Below are positions 36,612 through 42,482 of a stretch of 64,000 bases of DNA, piece by piece. A program made the position numbers and the translations under genes. Numbering within the stretch: position 1 is the stretch's first letter; every line of letters starts with the position of its first letter. The notes beneath the pieces are model-generated. The model did no database searches. It had not been told where the DNA came from and saw only the letters and a list, made by a program, of their open reading frames with translations. The stretch is from Planctomycetaceae bacterium (GTDB taxonomy: Bacteria > Planctomycetota > UBA1135 > GCA-002686595), in the NCBI GenBank assembly GCA_016125265.1, contig WGMC01000013.1, positions 124,001-188,000 of the forward strand, in the 5' to 3' direction.

Positions 36612-36685
<74 letters not shown>

Positions 36686-36687
<2 letters not shown>

Positions 36688-37024: not shown

Positions 37025-37582
37025 TCACTCGCGGATCTCCTCGACCTTCTTCTTGAGGACCTGGTCGATCTTGAGCTCGTACTCCTTGAGCAGCTCCTGG
37101 ATCTGGTCGTGGAGCTTGCGCCCCTCGTCCTCGGTCAGGCCGCCGGCTTTGATCTGGGCGTCCGCCAACTTGTTCATGTCGCGCCGGCCGTTGCGCATGG
37201 CGATGCGCGTCTCCTCGCACATCTCCTTCACCTTGACGGCGTACTTCTCACGCTGCTCGCCCGAGAGGGCCGGCAGGTTGAGGCGCACCATCTTGCCGTC
37301 GTCCTGGGGCTGCGAGCCGAAGTCCGCCTTCGACAGGGCCTTCAGGATCTCCTTGATGATCGACGGATCGAAGGGTTTGATCGCGATCTGGCGCGGTTCG
37401 GGGATGCTGACGGCGGCCAATTGGGAGATCGGCGTGGCGGCGCCGTAGTAGTCGACGCGGATGTTGTCGACGAGCGCGGACGACGCGCGTCCCGTGCGGA
37501 TCGCCTTCAGTTGGTCCGAAAGGTGTTGGAGCGCCTTCTCGAAGCGGTCCCGTGTGTCCTTGATGACTTGGTTTTCACTCAT
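37025..37582 (-). CDS. frr: Ribosome recycling factor
   Basis: Splits post-termination ribosomes together with EF-G (185 aa, normal length). Family landmarks are LKAIRTGRASSALVDNIRVDYYG, TPISQLAAVSIPEPR, then NLPALSGEQREKYAVKVKEM, and a C-terminal three-helix bundle ending in KKKVEEIRE. ATG 37582. Last gene of the rpsB-tsf-pyrH-frr group. Confidence 0.96.
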   Translation of the reverse strand: MSENQVIKDTRDRFEKALQHLSDQLKAIRTGRASSALVDNIRVDYYGAATPISQLAAVSIPEPRQIAIKPFDPSIIKEILKALSKADFGSQPQDDGKMVRLNLPALSGEQREKYAVKVKEMCEETRIAMRNGRRDMNKLADAQIKAGGLTEDEGRKLHDQIQELLKEYELKIDQVLKKKVEEIRE

Positions 37583-37620: not shown

Positions 37621-38331
37621 TCAGGCGCGGATCGTGGTGCCGAGGCGCTCGCCCTTGACCACACGCTCGATGTTGCCCTCGGAGAAGAAGTCGAAGACGA
37701 TCACGGGCAGGGATTTTTCCATGCACAGCGTGATCGCGGTCCCATCCATCACCGCGAGTCCGCGCGACAGCACGTCCATGTAGGTGAGGGTTTCGAGGCG
37801 CACGGCCTTCGGGTCCTTGCGCGGGTCGGCGCTGTACACACCGTCCACCTTGGTCGCCTTGAGCAGCACCTCGCAGCGCAGCTCCGCCGCGCGCAGCGCC
37901 GCAGCCGTGTCGGTGGTGAAAAAAGGGTTGCCGGTACCCGCGGCCAGCACCACGACACGCCCCTGGTCGAGGTGCGACAGGGCGCGGCGGCGGGTGAACG
38001 GCTCGGCGACCTGTCGGATGTCGATGGCGCTCATGAGGCGTGTGTCGACACCCTGCGATTCGATCGCCTCGCTCAGGGCGATGCCGTTGATCACCGTGGC
38101 GAGCATGCCCATGTGGTCGGCGCTGGCGCGGTCGCCTCCGATGCGGCTGAACTCGGCGCCGCGCAGGATGTTGCCCCCGCCGCAGACGAGCGCGATCTCG
38201 ACACCCAGCTCGGCGACGCGGGCAACCTGGCGCGCCACGAGTTGCACGGCATCGGGATCGATACCGTGGCCGTTCTGGGGGGAGCCCAGGGCTTCCCCGG
38301 ACAGTTTGAGCAGGACGCGTGAGAAGGTCAT
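37621..38331 (-). CDS. pyrH: Uridylate kinase
   Basis: Phosphorylates UMP to UDP; amino-acid-kinase fold (236 aa). VLLKLSGEALG at the N-terminus, CGGGNILRGAEF, DRASADHMGMLATVINGIAL, then KATKVDGVYSADPRKDP and AVMDGTAITLCMEKSLPVIVF. All match bacterial hexameric PyrH. ATG 38331. About 40 bases separate it from frr. Confidence 0.96.
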   Translation of the reverse strand: MTFSRVLLKLSGEALGSPQNGHGIDPDAVQLVARQVARVAELGVEIALVCGGGNILRGAEFSRIGGDRASADHMGMLATVINGIALSEAIESQGVDTRLMSAIDIRQVAEPFTRRRALSHLDQGRVVVLAAGTGNPFFTTDTAAALRAAELRCEVLLKATKVDGVYSADPRKDPKAVRLETLTYMDVLSRGLAVMDGTAITLCMEKSLPVIVFDFFSEGNIERVVKGERLGTTIRA

Positions 38332-38464
38332 GGCGTGGGGGCGCACGGGGCGCGGGGGGATTGTGCCGACACCCGGGGTCCCGGCGTAGGGTCGGGCGCC
38401 CAAAAATGGTCGCGGAAGGCCCGCCGATGGGGACGGTCGCTCCAACGCGTGAGGGACGTCGTGC

Positions 38465-39073
38465 CTATTCCGTCCCGGATTGCCCGAGCGACAAGGACAC
38501 GAACGCGAGCCATTCCGCCGGGGCGCCGGCCTCTCGCGCGAGCGCCGCGGCCACGGTTTGCTCCGGTGCCATCACCCAAGGTGCCGTCCGTTCCGCCTCC
38601 AACGCGTCGCCCTCGAGTGTGGCCAGGAGCCGCCCGCGCGGGTGGCGACTCACCACGTGCATCGCGAGTCGTTTCGCGGCGCGCTGCACCGCCGCGGGCT
38701 CGCCGCCGCCGGCCACGGCCACGAGTGCGGCACGGCGCTGGTCGTGGTGCACGTAGGCCCCGACGATCGCGCCCGGCCGCTCCAGTCGCACGGCCGCGGC
38801 CAACTCCAGCTCTTCCTCGACGGCGCTGCGCGCCTCGGCCAGGCGATCTGCAACGGTTTCGGTGCTCGAGACCGCAGTGGTGGCGAGCAGCGCCCGCACA
38901 CCGAGGTCCGTCCCCCGGGAGAGGGGACCTAGGTCCGCGGTGAGCGCTGTTTCCGCGAGCTCCCGCGCCAGCCAGCGGTCCTGCGGCGTGGGCCGGTGGA
39001 ACGACAGCCGCAGGGCAACCAGTGCCCCCGCGGAATGGTCGCCCCGGAGGAATGCCTCCACCAGGCCTTCCAC
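38465..39073 (-). CDS. EF-Ts-like paralogue, degenerate, downstream of tsf
   Basis: 202 aa from GTG 39073, three bases after the tsf stop; GTG 39061 is also possible, with AAGGAG 11 bases upstream of it. The centre (VGAYVHHDQRRAALVAVAGG, then AAKRLAMHVVSRHPR) parallels the dimerisation domain of the adjacent tsf (VSAYVHHNNKIGALVAVSTS, then VAKKLAQHI). The N-terminal ~70 residues (RPTPQDRWLARELAETALT) may replace the UBA-type start of EF-Ts, and the TDFV EF-Tu contact motif is absent. So it is a truncated or rebuilt EF-Ts copy. The codon pattern looks like normal coding DNA, with no internal stop. Function unknown. Confidence 0.7.
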   Translation of the reverse strand: MEGLVEAFLRGDHSAGALVALRLSFHRPTPQDRWLARELAETALTADLGPLSRGTDLGVRALLATTAVSSTETVADRLAEARSAVEEELELAAAVRLERPGAIVGAYVHHDQRRAALVAVAGGGEPAAVQRAAKRLAMHVVSRHPRGRLLATLEGDALEAERTAPWVMAPEQTVAAALAREAGAPAEWLAFVSLSLGQSGTE

Positions 39074-39076
39074 TCC

Positions 39077-39937
39077 TTACAGCTCGACGAGGCAGAAGGC
39101 GTCGATGCGGGTGCCCGCGCCGAGTTCCTTCTCGAGGGCCTTCTGCACACTCTGCTTGTCGTCGAACGTCCAGGGCTGCTCGACCAACGCCGAGGCCTGG
39201 AAGAACTTCTCGATCTTGCCGAGCACGATCTTCTCGCGCATCTCCGGCGGGCGGCTGGCGAGTTCCTCACTGCCGAGGTGCACGGCGCGCTCGCGCTCCA
39301 CCTCCTCGGCGGGCACGGAGGCGCGGTCCAGACACATCGGCTTGGCGGCGCAGATGTGCTGGGCCAACTTCTTCGCCACGTCGCTCGCCTTGTCGGCGGC
39401 GGCGGACGTCGACACGGCCACCAGCGCGCCGATCTTGTTGTTGTGGTGCACGTAGGCGCTGACCACGCCGCCCTTCACGTCGAAACGCGCGACGTTGGAG
39501 ATGCGCATGTTCTCGCCCAGCTTGCCGACCACCTGGGTCAGCCGCGCGGAGACCAGCTCATCGCCGCCGGCGACGGCAGAGCCCAGCAGGGCTTCCGCCG
39601 CGGCAGCGCCCTGGCCGCGCACCTTCTCCTGTGCGGTGTCGACGAGCACACCGAGGAAAGCCTGGAAGTCCGGCGTCGCCGCGACGAAGTCGGTCTCGCA
39701 GGAAACACCGACGATGGCTCCGCTCTTGCCATCGGCGGCCACCTTCGCGGCAACGCGGCCCTCGTTGGTCTCGCGGGAGGACTTCTTGGCGGCGTTCTTC
39801 AGGCCCTTCTGGCGCAGGAGGTCGACCGCCGCATTCTGGTCGCCGCCCGCCTCCTCGAGGGCCTTCTTGCAATCCATCATCGCCGCCCCGGTGAGGTCGC
39901 GCAGGTCGCGCACCATGCCCGCCGTAATGTTCGCCAT
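39077..39937 (-). CDS. tsf: Elongation factor Ts
   Basis: Guanine-nucleotide exchange factor for EF-Tu (286 aa). UBA-type N-terminus (VRDLRDLTGAAMMDCKKALEE), then CETDFVAATPDFQAF with the TDFV EF-Tu contact motif. The dimerisation domain carries VSAYVHHNNKIGALVAVS, and the C-terminal FEATURE-like VEQPWTFDDKQSV is present. ATG 39937, 91 bases after rpsB. Confidence 0.97.
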   Translation of the reverse strand: MANITAGMVRDLRDLTGAAMMDCKKALEEAGGDQNAAVDLLRQKGLKNAAKKSSRETNEGRVAAKVAADGKSGAIVGVSCETDFVAATPDFQAFLGVLVDTAQEKVRGQGAAAAEALLGSAVAGGDELVSARLTQVVGKLGENMRISNVARFDVKGGVVSAYVHHNNKIGALVAVSTSAAADKASDVAKKLAQHICAAKPMCLDRASVPAEEVERERAVHLGSEELASRPPEMREKIVLGKIEKFFQASALVEQPWTFDDKQSVQKALEKELGAGTRIDAFCLVEL

Positions 39938-40028: not shown

Positions 40029-40934
40029 TCAGACGGAAGCCGCGGAGTCGCCTTCGCCCTCGGCATCCACCGGCGCCGCGGCCGGTTGCGCGCCCTGGCT
40101 GCCGGAGGACTGGCCGCCGGAGGACTGGCCGCCGGAGCCTTGGCGCCCGGGGCGCGGGGCGCGGTTGCCGCGGGTCGGACGGGGTTCGTCGCCCATCGGC
40201 GTGTTGGACTCGCTGGCGCGCTCGGCGGCGCCCATCGCGGCCATGCTCTCACGGGCATTGGCGGCGCCTTCTTCGACGGCGGTCACCAGGCTCTCCACCA
40301 GCAGGCGCACCGACTTGAGGGCGTCGTCGTTGCCGGGGATCACGATGTCGACGTTGGACGGATCGCAGTCCGTGTCGAGGATGCCGATGATCGCCAGGCC
40401 CATGCGGCGGGCTTCGCGGATCGCGTTGTACTCGCGCGAGGGGTCCACGACGACGAGCGCGCCGGGGATGCCGTTCATCTCGCGGATGCCGCCCAGGTTG
40501 CGCACGATCTTGCGCTTCTCGCGGCGCAGCGAGCTGACGGCCTTCTTCGAGAACTGGTGGATGCCGCCGTCCTCTTCCATCTTCTCGAGCTCCTCGAGGC
40601 GGCGCAGACGGCTCCGGATGACGCCGTAGTTCGTCAGCGTGCCGCCGATCCAGCGCTCGGTCACGACGGGCATGCCCGTGCGTTCGCCGGCTTCGCGCAC
40701 GACACCGCGCACTTGGCGCTTGGTGCCGGCCCACAGGATCTGGCCGCCGTCGGCCGCCAGGTGGTAGAGCACGTGGCGCGCGCGCAGCAGGCCGCGCACG
40801 GTCTCGCGCAGGTCGATGATGTGGATCGTGCCGCGGCGGCCCTGGATGTAGGGCGCCATCTTCGGGTTCCAGCGGGAGGCGTGGCAGCCGAAGTGCACAC
40901 CGGCGTCGATCAGTTCCTGGACGTTCGTTTGCAT
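40029..40934 (-). CDS. rpsB: Ribosomal protein uS2 with extended tail
   Basis: 301 aa. Core typical of S2: LIDAGVHFGCHASRWNPKMAPYI, then GTLTNY, PGALVVVDPSREYNAIREA and DTDCDPSNVDIVIPGNDD. The tail beyond residue ~235 is a low-complexity Gly/Ser/Gln/Pro/Arg region ending in AEGEGDSAASV, longer than in most bacteria, as often seen in GC-rich lineages. ATG 40934. The upstream leader may be very long (see 40935-41531). Confidence 0.96.
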   Translation of the reverse strand: MQTNVQELIDAGVHFGCHASRWNPKMAPYIQGRRGTIHIIDLRETVRGLLRARHVLYHLAADGGQILWAGTKRQVRGVVREAGERTGMPVVTERWIGGTLTNYGVIRSRLRRLEELEKMEEDGGIHQFSKKAVSSLRREKRKIVRNLGGIREMNGIPGALVVVDPSREYNAIREARRMGLAIIGILDTDCDPSNVDIVIPGNDDALKSVRLLVESLVTAVEEGAANARESMAAMGAAERASESNTPMGDEPRPTRGNRAPRPGRQGSGGQSSGGQSSGSQGAQPAAAPVDAEGEGDSAASV

Positions 40935-41531
40935 GGGAGTCGTGCCCGCATCCGATGTCGGCGGGCGATGGGTACGTGGCAAAAGGTGCAGCGGCGGCGC
41001 CAGAGGTGTCGGTGCGCCGCATCGGACGGCGAGATCGGAGCAGTCCGATCGGGTCCGTCGACGGAACGCGCCGCGGAGCCGACTTCGGCTCCCTGGGCAT
41101 TCGCTCCCCCTTCGCTCCGCTCTGGGCACCTACCGCCGCGGCATGGCCTTGGCCGTGGGCTGGGCTCGGATCGCACCAGCGCCACCGGATCCCGCGGTCG
41201 GTCGAAACCGACGGAGAGGGTTCCGACGAGGCGAACTCGTCGGCGGTGAGCGCCCGGACGCGGGACTTGGAGGGCCGAACAGACTAACGGCCGACCGGGT
41301 ACAAGGGAAGTGCGACGGGGCTGGCCGGAAACCGAAAGCGAAACCAGACGCGGGACCGAGGGGTATTCCTCGGATGGCCGGGGTGCATGGAACCGGCAAA
41401 ATGCCTGCCACCTCGCCCCAATGCGGATTCCTACATTATCCTTGGTCGGTTCCCGAGCGGGCCAGAAGCCCGAGACCCCGGAACCCGGGTCCGCTGGGAG
41501 CTCCGGCGGCTCCCGGACCGAGCCGACCCCC
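40935..41531. other. Divergent rpsB / GGDEF intergenic region
   Basis: About 600 bases with no supported gene; the antisense frames are GC-driven. It carries the rpsB leader and the GGDEF-gene promoter. TAGTCT at 41281-41286 faces rpsB. An unusually AT-rich spot (TACATTATCC, 41432-41441) faces the GGDEF gene. I see no obvious S2-binding structure without folding. Confidence 0.4.
41281..41286 (-). promoter_or_regulatory. Candidate -10 for rpsB-tsf
   Basis: TAGTCT on the minus strand (context CGTTAGTCTGTTCGG), with TTCCCT 17 bases further up. If used, the rpsB leader is about 345 bases. Confidence 0.3.
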
Positions 41532-42482
41532 ATGGCCCGCGCGCCGCTAGTCCTGCTCTGCGACCACCGCGGGGCCACTTCGCAGATCGAACGACTCCAG
41601 GCCGCCCTGGGGCCGGAGTACCGCCTCGTGCACTCCTCGAACCTGCGCACCAGCCTGGAGCGCCTCGCCGCCGAGGCCCCCGCCGTCCTGGTGGTGGACC
41701 CTCTCGTCCTGGGCCGGGGCGGTGAGCTGATCGCGCTCAAACACGCCCGCGGCCGGGACCAGGACGTGCCGCTGCTCGTCGTGGTCGACGGGGGTAAGGC
41801 GGGTTTCGCCCTCGACTCCCTGCGCGGCGTCGAGCTGGGCCCCTGGGACCTGATCGACCGCGGCGCCAGCGACGCCGAGTTCCGCATGCGCGTGGCGCGC
41901 CTCGCCAGCGAGGGCCGCCTGCGCCGCGAGATGCGCGACCTGCGGCACCGGGCGTCCCACGACGACCGCACGGACCTCCTGCGCCCGGACGCGTTCGAAG
42001 CGCGCCTCACCGAGCACTTCGCCGCGGCGCGCCGGCACGGCTTCAACCTCGCGCTCGTGCTGCTCGACCTCGACCGCTTCGGCACGATCAACAAGGAACT
42101 GGACCACACCATCGGCGACCTGGTGATCGCCCAGGTCGGCGAGGTCGTGCGCAAGACCATCCGCACCGAGGACGTGGCCGGCCGCCTCGGCGGCGACGAG
42201 TTCGCCGCCGTGCTGCCGTACACCCGCCGCGCCGACGCGGCGACGGTGGGCGAACGCCTGCGCGAGGGCATCAAGCGACTCTCCGGCCGCCCGGTGGGCG
42301 CCGCCCAGGACGTGGCCGTGTCCGCGAGCATCGGCTTCGAGACCTTCGACGGCCAGGACCTGGGCGACGCGATGCAACTGCGCCAACACGCCGAACGCGC
42401 GCTGCGCGAGGCCAAACGCCAGGGGGGCGACCAGGTCGTGTACTTCCGCTCCCTGACGGGCCCCCGCCGCAGCGACATCTGA
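41532..42482 (+). CDS. Diguanylate cyclase (receiver-like domain + GGDEF)
   Basis: Makes cyclic di-GMP from two GTP (316 aa). The N-terminal ~120 residues resemble a response-regulator receiver (acidic D11, candidate phospho-acceptor D56 in VVDP), without a clear C-terminal Lys. The GGDEF domain carries an intact GGDEF at 220-224 and the inhibitory RxxD site at 211-214 (RTED), so product feedback is expected. Also DLLRPDAFE, LALVLLDLDRFG and VSASIGFETF. ATG 41532. No partner kinase nearby. Confidence 0.9.
   Translation: MARAPLVLLCDHRGATSQIERLQAALGPEYRLVHSSNLRTSLERLAAEAPAVLVVDPLVLGRGGELIALKHARGRDQDVPLLVVVDGGKAGFALDSLRGVELGPWDLIDRGASDAEFRMRVARLASEGRLRREMRDLRHRASHDDRTDLLRPDAFEARLTEHFAAARRHGFNLALVLLDLDRFGTINKELDHTIGDLVIAQVGEVVRKTIRTEDVAGRLGGDEFAAVLPYTRRADAATVGERLREGIKRLSGRPVGAAQDVAVSASIGFETFDGQDLGDAMQLRQHAERALREAKRQGGDQVVYFRSLTGPRRSDI

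Follow-up and report, generated by a model that had tools for sequence, protein, structure and literature searches.

Directly behind tsf, in the window analysed here (by which we mean the whole stretch of 64,000 nucleotides), lies a second gene of EF-Ts descent. Its product, designated X, is a true EF-Ts relative, strongly altered and shortened to a bare two-subdomain core. The reading we prefer, at a probability of about 40%, is that this diverged EF-Ts duplicate would act as an EF-Tu partner that performs no exchange, and would compete with EF-Ts or tune it.

Gene order and translation signals

The gene order in the window is rpsB-tsf-X-pyrH-frr, with the following features.

37025..37582, minus strand: frr, ribosome recycling factor (open reading frame and homology across relatives)
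37621..38331, minus strand: pyrH, UMP kinase (open reading frame and homology across relatives)
38412..38424, minus strand: terminator-like hairpin and T run between X and pyrH (weak; 2 such sites against 2.1 expected in shuffles)
38465..39073, minus strand: X, EF-Ts-core paralog, 202 aa, GTG start (PF00889, 48.5 bits; AlphaFold2 pLDDT 89.1, pTM 0.87; Foldseek to EF-Ts, E=4e-9)
39073..39078, minus strand: Shine-Dalgarno-like AAGGAG, overlapping the tsf stop codon (sequence inspection)
39077..39937, minus strand: tsf, EF-Ts, 286 aa, full length with TDFV (TIGR00116, 213 bits against a cut-off of 104)
40029..40934, minus strand: rpsB, ribosomal protein S2 (open reading frame and homology across relatives)

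A frame of 202 residues right behind tsf had been reported from the letters of the DNA, and it is there as described, with only three nucleotides (GGA) between the tsf stop codon (39077-39079) and the GTG start of X. The AAGGAG directly adjoins this start codon; its distance to another in-frame GTG, at codon 5 (39061), is more favourable. The layout suggests that translation of X may be coupled to that of tsf, from the AAGGAG that overlaps the tsf stop. The predicted hairpin at 38412..38424 might perhaps terminate an rpsB-tsf-X transcript. No RNA element was found in the gap between X and pyrH (fold z=+1.0), the sole Rfam result being a tRNA gene downstream of frr (36615-36687, minus strand, 76 bits). 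On the other side of the cluster, divergent from rpsB, an open reading frame at 41310-42482 on the plus strand carries the GGDEF-type motif LGGDEFAAVLP and probably encodes a diguanylate cyclase.

Homology and predicted fold

Residues 63-187 of X match the Pfam EF_TS model PF00889 with E=1.1e-12 and 48.5 bits, above the gathering cut-off of 27 bits, while the score to the EF-Ts equivalog model TIGR00116, 22.8 bits, falls below the curated cut-off of 104 bits. BLASTP aligns X to the adjacent tsf product with E=4e-13 (25% over 233 columns). Across the whole genome, PF00889 matches at exactly two places, tsf and X, with no third. The AlphaFold2 model of X is a two-subdomain EF-Ts core (pLDDT 89.1, pTM 0.87), built from an alignment that included true EF-Ts rows, which pull the model toward the EF-Ts fold; a Foldseek search of the PDB with this model returned EF-Ts for all of the top nine matches, the best at E=4e-9 and TM 0.70. 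As a model, then, the core of X is shown to fold as EF-Ts. The sequence-only reading had called the gene EF-Ts-like, and profile search and structure prediction both bear this out.

Alignment with tsf places the start of X where the EF-Ts core begins (EGLVEAF against EGRVAAK), and its end close to that of tsf. The N-terminal UBA-like domain is absent, the first ~58 residues of tsf having no counterpart by alignment or model, and ~35 residues are missing from the coiled-coil region. X differs from tsf by several indels, every one of which preserves the frame. The strings VGAYVHHDQRRAALVAVA and AAKRLAMHVV, cited earlier as a repeat of the dimerisation-domain pattern of tsf, are present in X, as are their counterparts in tsf. 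That similarity is real, but what was taken for the dimerisation domain corresponds to subdomain C of the EF-Ts core, and the N subdomain, more weakly conserved, is present as well.

EF-Tu contact residues and proposed role

Contact with domain I of EF-Tu and displacement of Mg2+ involve the N-terminal domain of EF-Ts together with T79-D80-F81-V82, I125 and G126 (PMC3747624, PMC9529903), and, of all EF-Ts residues, F81 makes the most extensive contact with EF-Tu (PMC5770160). When X is mapped onto E. coli EF-Ts numbering, all of the domain I and Mg2+ positions are missing or changed except Phe81. The TDFV segment (79-82), correctly reported as absent, aligns with L-S-F-H, so that T79L and D80S are found and only Phe81 may remain; G126 is replaced by Glu, and K23 and K51 are missing. 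T79, D80 and F81 are invariant in 49 tsf products of the planctomycete family. The profile scores, the predicted structure and the residue mapping all support the loss of the exchange residues that was proposed from the outset. Since X lacks the regions that hold domain I of EF-Tu and displace Mg2+, and a normal tsf is present, we strongly infer that it does not function in guanine-nucleotide exchange.

The positions of EF-Ts in contact with EF-Tu domain III include H147, I151, K166, M170, A174 and V234 (PMC3747624, PMC9529903). X is identical to the E. coli protein at H147, K166, M170, V234 and M235, and is altered at two domain III positions (I151R, A174S). Agreement with the tsf consensus is closer in subdomain C of X (19 of 40 positions) than in subdomain N (24 of 85; Fisher p=0.04, a modest value obtained from a single sequence). 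The retention of H147, K166, M170 and V234 weakly suggests that X may use subdomain C to dock onto domain III of EF-Tu, an argument drawn from six positions in one sequence.

Taken together, the domain III contact positions that persist and the location of X so close to tsf suggest an EF-Tu partner without exchange. In such a scheme, a tsf duplicate cut down to the two-subdomain core would be sited for translation directly behind tsf; X, produced beside EF-Ts, would dock on domain III through subdomain C; and X bound to EF-Tu without exchange would compete with EF-Ts or tune it. That X regulates EF-Ts, as the sequence-only reading put forward, would be a guess. Service to a second EF-Tu was also considered and is unsupported: the window's genome has one EF-Tu match and no family genome shows more than one, so that no additional EF-Tu seems available to X.

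Copies in related genomes

An EF-Ts-derived frame of ~202-231 aa occurs between tsf and pyrH in 12 of 81 genomes of the family, the window's included, in five genera; for fragmented assemblies, adjacency was judged from pyrH and frr alone. The family is a group of uncultured Planctomycetota, probably largely marine to judge by how the isolates in related records are named. The 11 other carriers, from four genera (g3, g14, g23 and g62), have copies of ~205 aa. The expectation that rpsB-tsf-pyrH-frr normally holds no extra gene is thus correct for most relatives, but not for these 11. Neither result that would have spoken against the sequence-only reading was obtained: an EF-Ts profile match exists, and the gene is not missing or disrupted in every relative. 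In the other relatives examined, the gap from tsf to pyrH is 11-235 bp, with no room for X. Spacing from tsf to X in the related carriers inspected is ~90-390 bp, against 3 nt in the window. Strong hairpins, terminator-like by eye, lie between tsf and X in some relatives (L050, L032), and there X may therefore have its own promoter.

The 11 other copies share replacement of H147 by Pro and alteration of D80 (11 of 11 in each case), and a single one keeps F81. Their subdomain C is eroded and their subdomain N is better kept than in the window copy; a model of one family member reached pLDDT 88.3 and matched with Foldseek E=1.4e-12. Between species, dN/dS (NG86) is 0.09-0.21 in g62, 0.23 in g23 and 0.35 in g3, compared with 0.06-0.11 for tsf; all of these X values come from pairs of other family copies, the window copy having no close orthologue. 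The proposed comparison of dN/dS in related genomes thus bears on those other copies. The X proteins in the pairs compared are under purifying selection, as functional proteins would be.

These copies bring forward a serious, if less favoured, alternative, in which the EF-Ts core has been reused as a scaffold for a task unrelated to EF-Tu. All 11 combine H147P with an altered D80, the fold is kept in the model and dN/dS is 0.09-0.35 in the tested pairs; without the domain I and domain III contacts, they already look like such scaffolds. The replacement of H147 by Pro in every other family copy counts against the non-exchanging EF-Tu partner. Against reuse as a scaffold stand the domain III contact residues still present in the window copy and its distance of 3 nt from tsf.

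Other EF-Ts-derived frames were seen in the family. In G025 (L092:3065-3727, plus strand), one of ~221 aa with CETEFV directly follows a Xaa-Pro aminopeptidase gene and converges with frr, and in G004 (L093:5581-6309, minus strand), one of 242 aa keeps ETDFV and is found on a different contig from tsf; no close match to either was found in the family. The remainder of the order yielded no X-like gene; across the order, a PF00889 search shows EF-Ts of ~280 aa for the window's family and open frames of ~200 aa, Thermus-like in length, for other families. Nor was an X-like gene evident in a sample of 246 genomes from the phylum, nearly all with one EF-Ts match. X as a phylum-wide feature is therefore unsupported by that sample, in which the few double matches look like split hits of short EF-Ts.

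Coding signal of the window copy

Codon adaptation of the window copy is 0.49, where its neighbours score 0.71-0.83 and an antisense frame scores 0.51, figures that tell against the EF-Tu partner. With the base composition found here (74% GC), a run of 202 codons would escape stop codons with a probability of ~0.04, and openness of the frame is by itself weak evidence. A serious though rather unlikely alternative is that the window copy is a non-functional duplicate in decay, left open since stops are rare at 74% GC. The low codon adaptation, the ~0.04 chance and a very long branch (2.2-3.8 changes per site) all fit decay, as does G078, a genome of a carrier genus in which a remnant of X (L094:2563-2950) has lost ~400 bp and acquired a premature stop while sister species have intact copies, so that the gene evidently can be lost. 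Against decay stand the in-frame insertions and deletions relative to tsf, unequal GC at the three codon positions (0.82/0.55/0.84), a score above the Pfam cut-off and the confident model of an EF-Ts core.

Two further explanations fare worse. That X is an active minimal exchange factor, working through Phe81 alone, draws on the Phe of X that aligns with F81 and is very improbable, given the loss of T79, D80 and G126, the missing N-terminal domain and the normal tsf alongside. A chance open reading frame in GC-rich DNA, which the many spurious long frames overlapping in this region might bring to mind, is excluded, since EF-Ts is matched by profile search, by pairwise alignment and by structure.

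Origin of the window copy

The species tree places the window's genome with G016 and G030, both of which lack X, and away from the other carriers. In a joint tree, the 11 other copies form a single clade (100/100), and the window copy, on the longest branch in the tree, joins its own tsf (96/76) inside a group with G016 and G030 (97/96). A tree built with the window copy as the only X, and on other columns, places it elsewhere. The AU test does not reject a single origin of all 12 copies (p=0.21); nesting of the 11 others within the tsf of their own species clade, absent from the tree, is likewise unrejected (p=0.15). The tandem duplication put forward by the sequence-only reading is thus backed, as a lineage-specific event, by one tree but not by the other. 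A duplication independent of that behind the other 11 copies is favoured, not proven, because the joint tree separates the window copy and because the retained parts differ, subdomain C in the window and subdomain N elsewhere.

Relation to known EF-Ts proteins

The operon that encodes EF-Ts is highly stable, and the gene is usually present once. A divergent additional copy that lacks the exchange residues and is kept by selection in related genera would amount to a naturally exchange-deficient EF-Ts, one that might regulate EF-Tu recycling. X also makes it possible to ask, in a natural setting, what the core of EF-Ts does once its catalytic parts are removed. A broader proposal, that the family has repeatedly made non-exchanging EF-Ts-core proteins that constitute an undescribed class of EF-Tu regulators, with the window copy binding domain III and setting EF-Tu recycling by EF-Ts, strikes us as distinctly unlikely.

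With bacterial EF-Ts (TIGR00116/PF00889), X shares the two-subdomain core, the AYVHH motif, four of the six EF-Tu domain III contact residues compared and the rpsB-tsf-pyrH-frr location; it differs in having no UBA-like N-terminal domain, coiled coil or TDFV, in G126E, and in scoring 22.8 bits against the 104-bit cut-off. The short EF-Ts of Thermus type (1AIP, 1TFE), which those of other families of the same order resemble in length, combines a UBA-like domain and TDFV with one core subdomain and works as a dimer. It is of similar length to X, ~200 aa, whereas X has two subdomains, no UBA-like domain and no TDFV.

Like the window copy, those of g3, g14, g23 and g62 are ~205 aa in length, lie between tsf and pyrH and are formed of a core without UBA domain and coiled coil. 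They differ from it in forming a separate clade in the joint tree (100/100), in H147P, in an eroded subdomain C beside a better kept subdomain N, and in lying ~90-390 bp from tsf. A literature search found no published bacterial EF-Ts paralog family, the nearest cases being a phage protein and plastid two-domain proteins. The former, gp247 of phage Colossus, is a truncated EF-Ts-like protein of 98 aa with subdomain N and F81 only (PMC3556154); X too is truncated and EF-Ts-like, but gp247 is phage-borne and limited to subdomain N, where X keeps subdomain C best. The latter, the chloroplast proteins EMB2726 and OsAL7 of plants, also have a duplicated EF-Ts domain, which is reportedly fused within one plastid polypeptide, while X is a separate, diverged gene.
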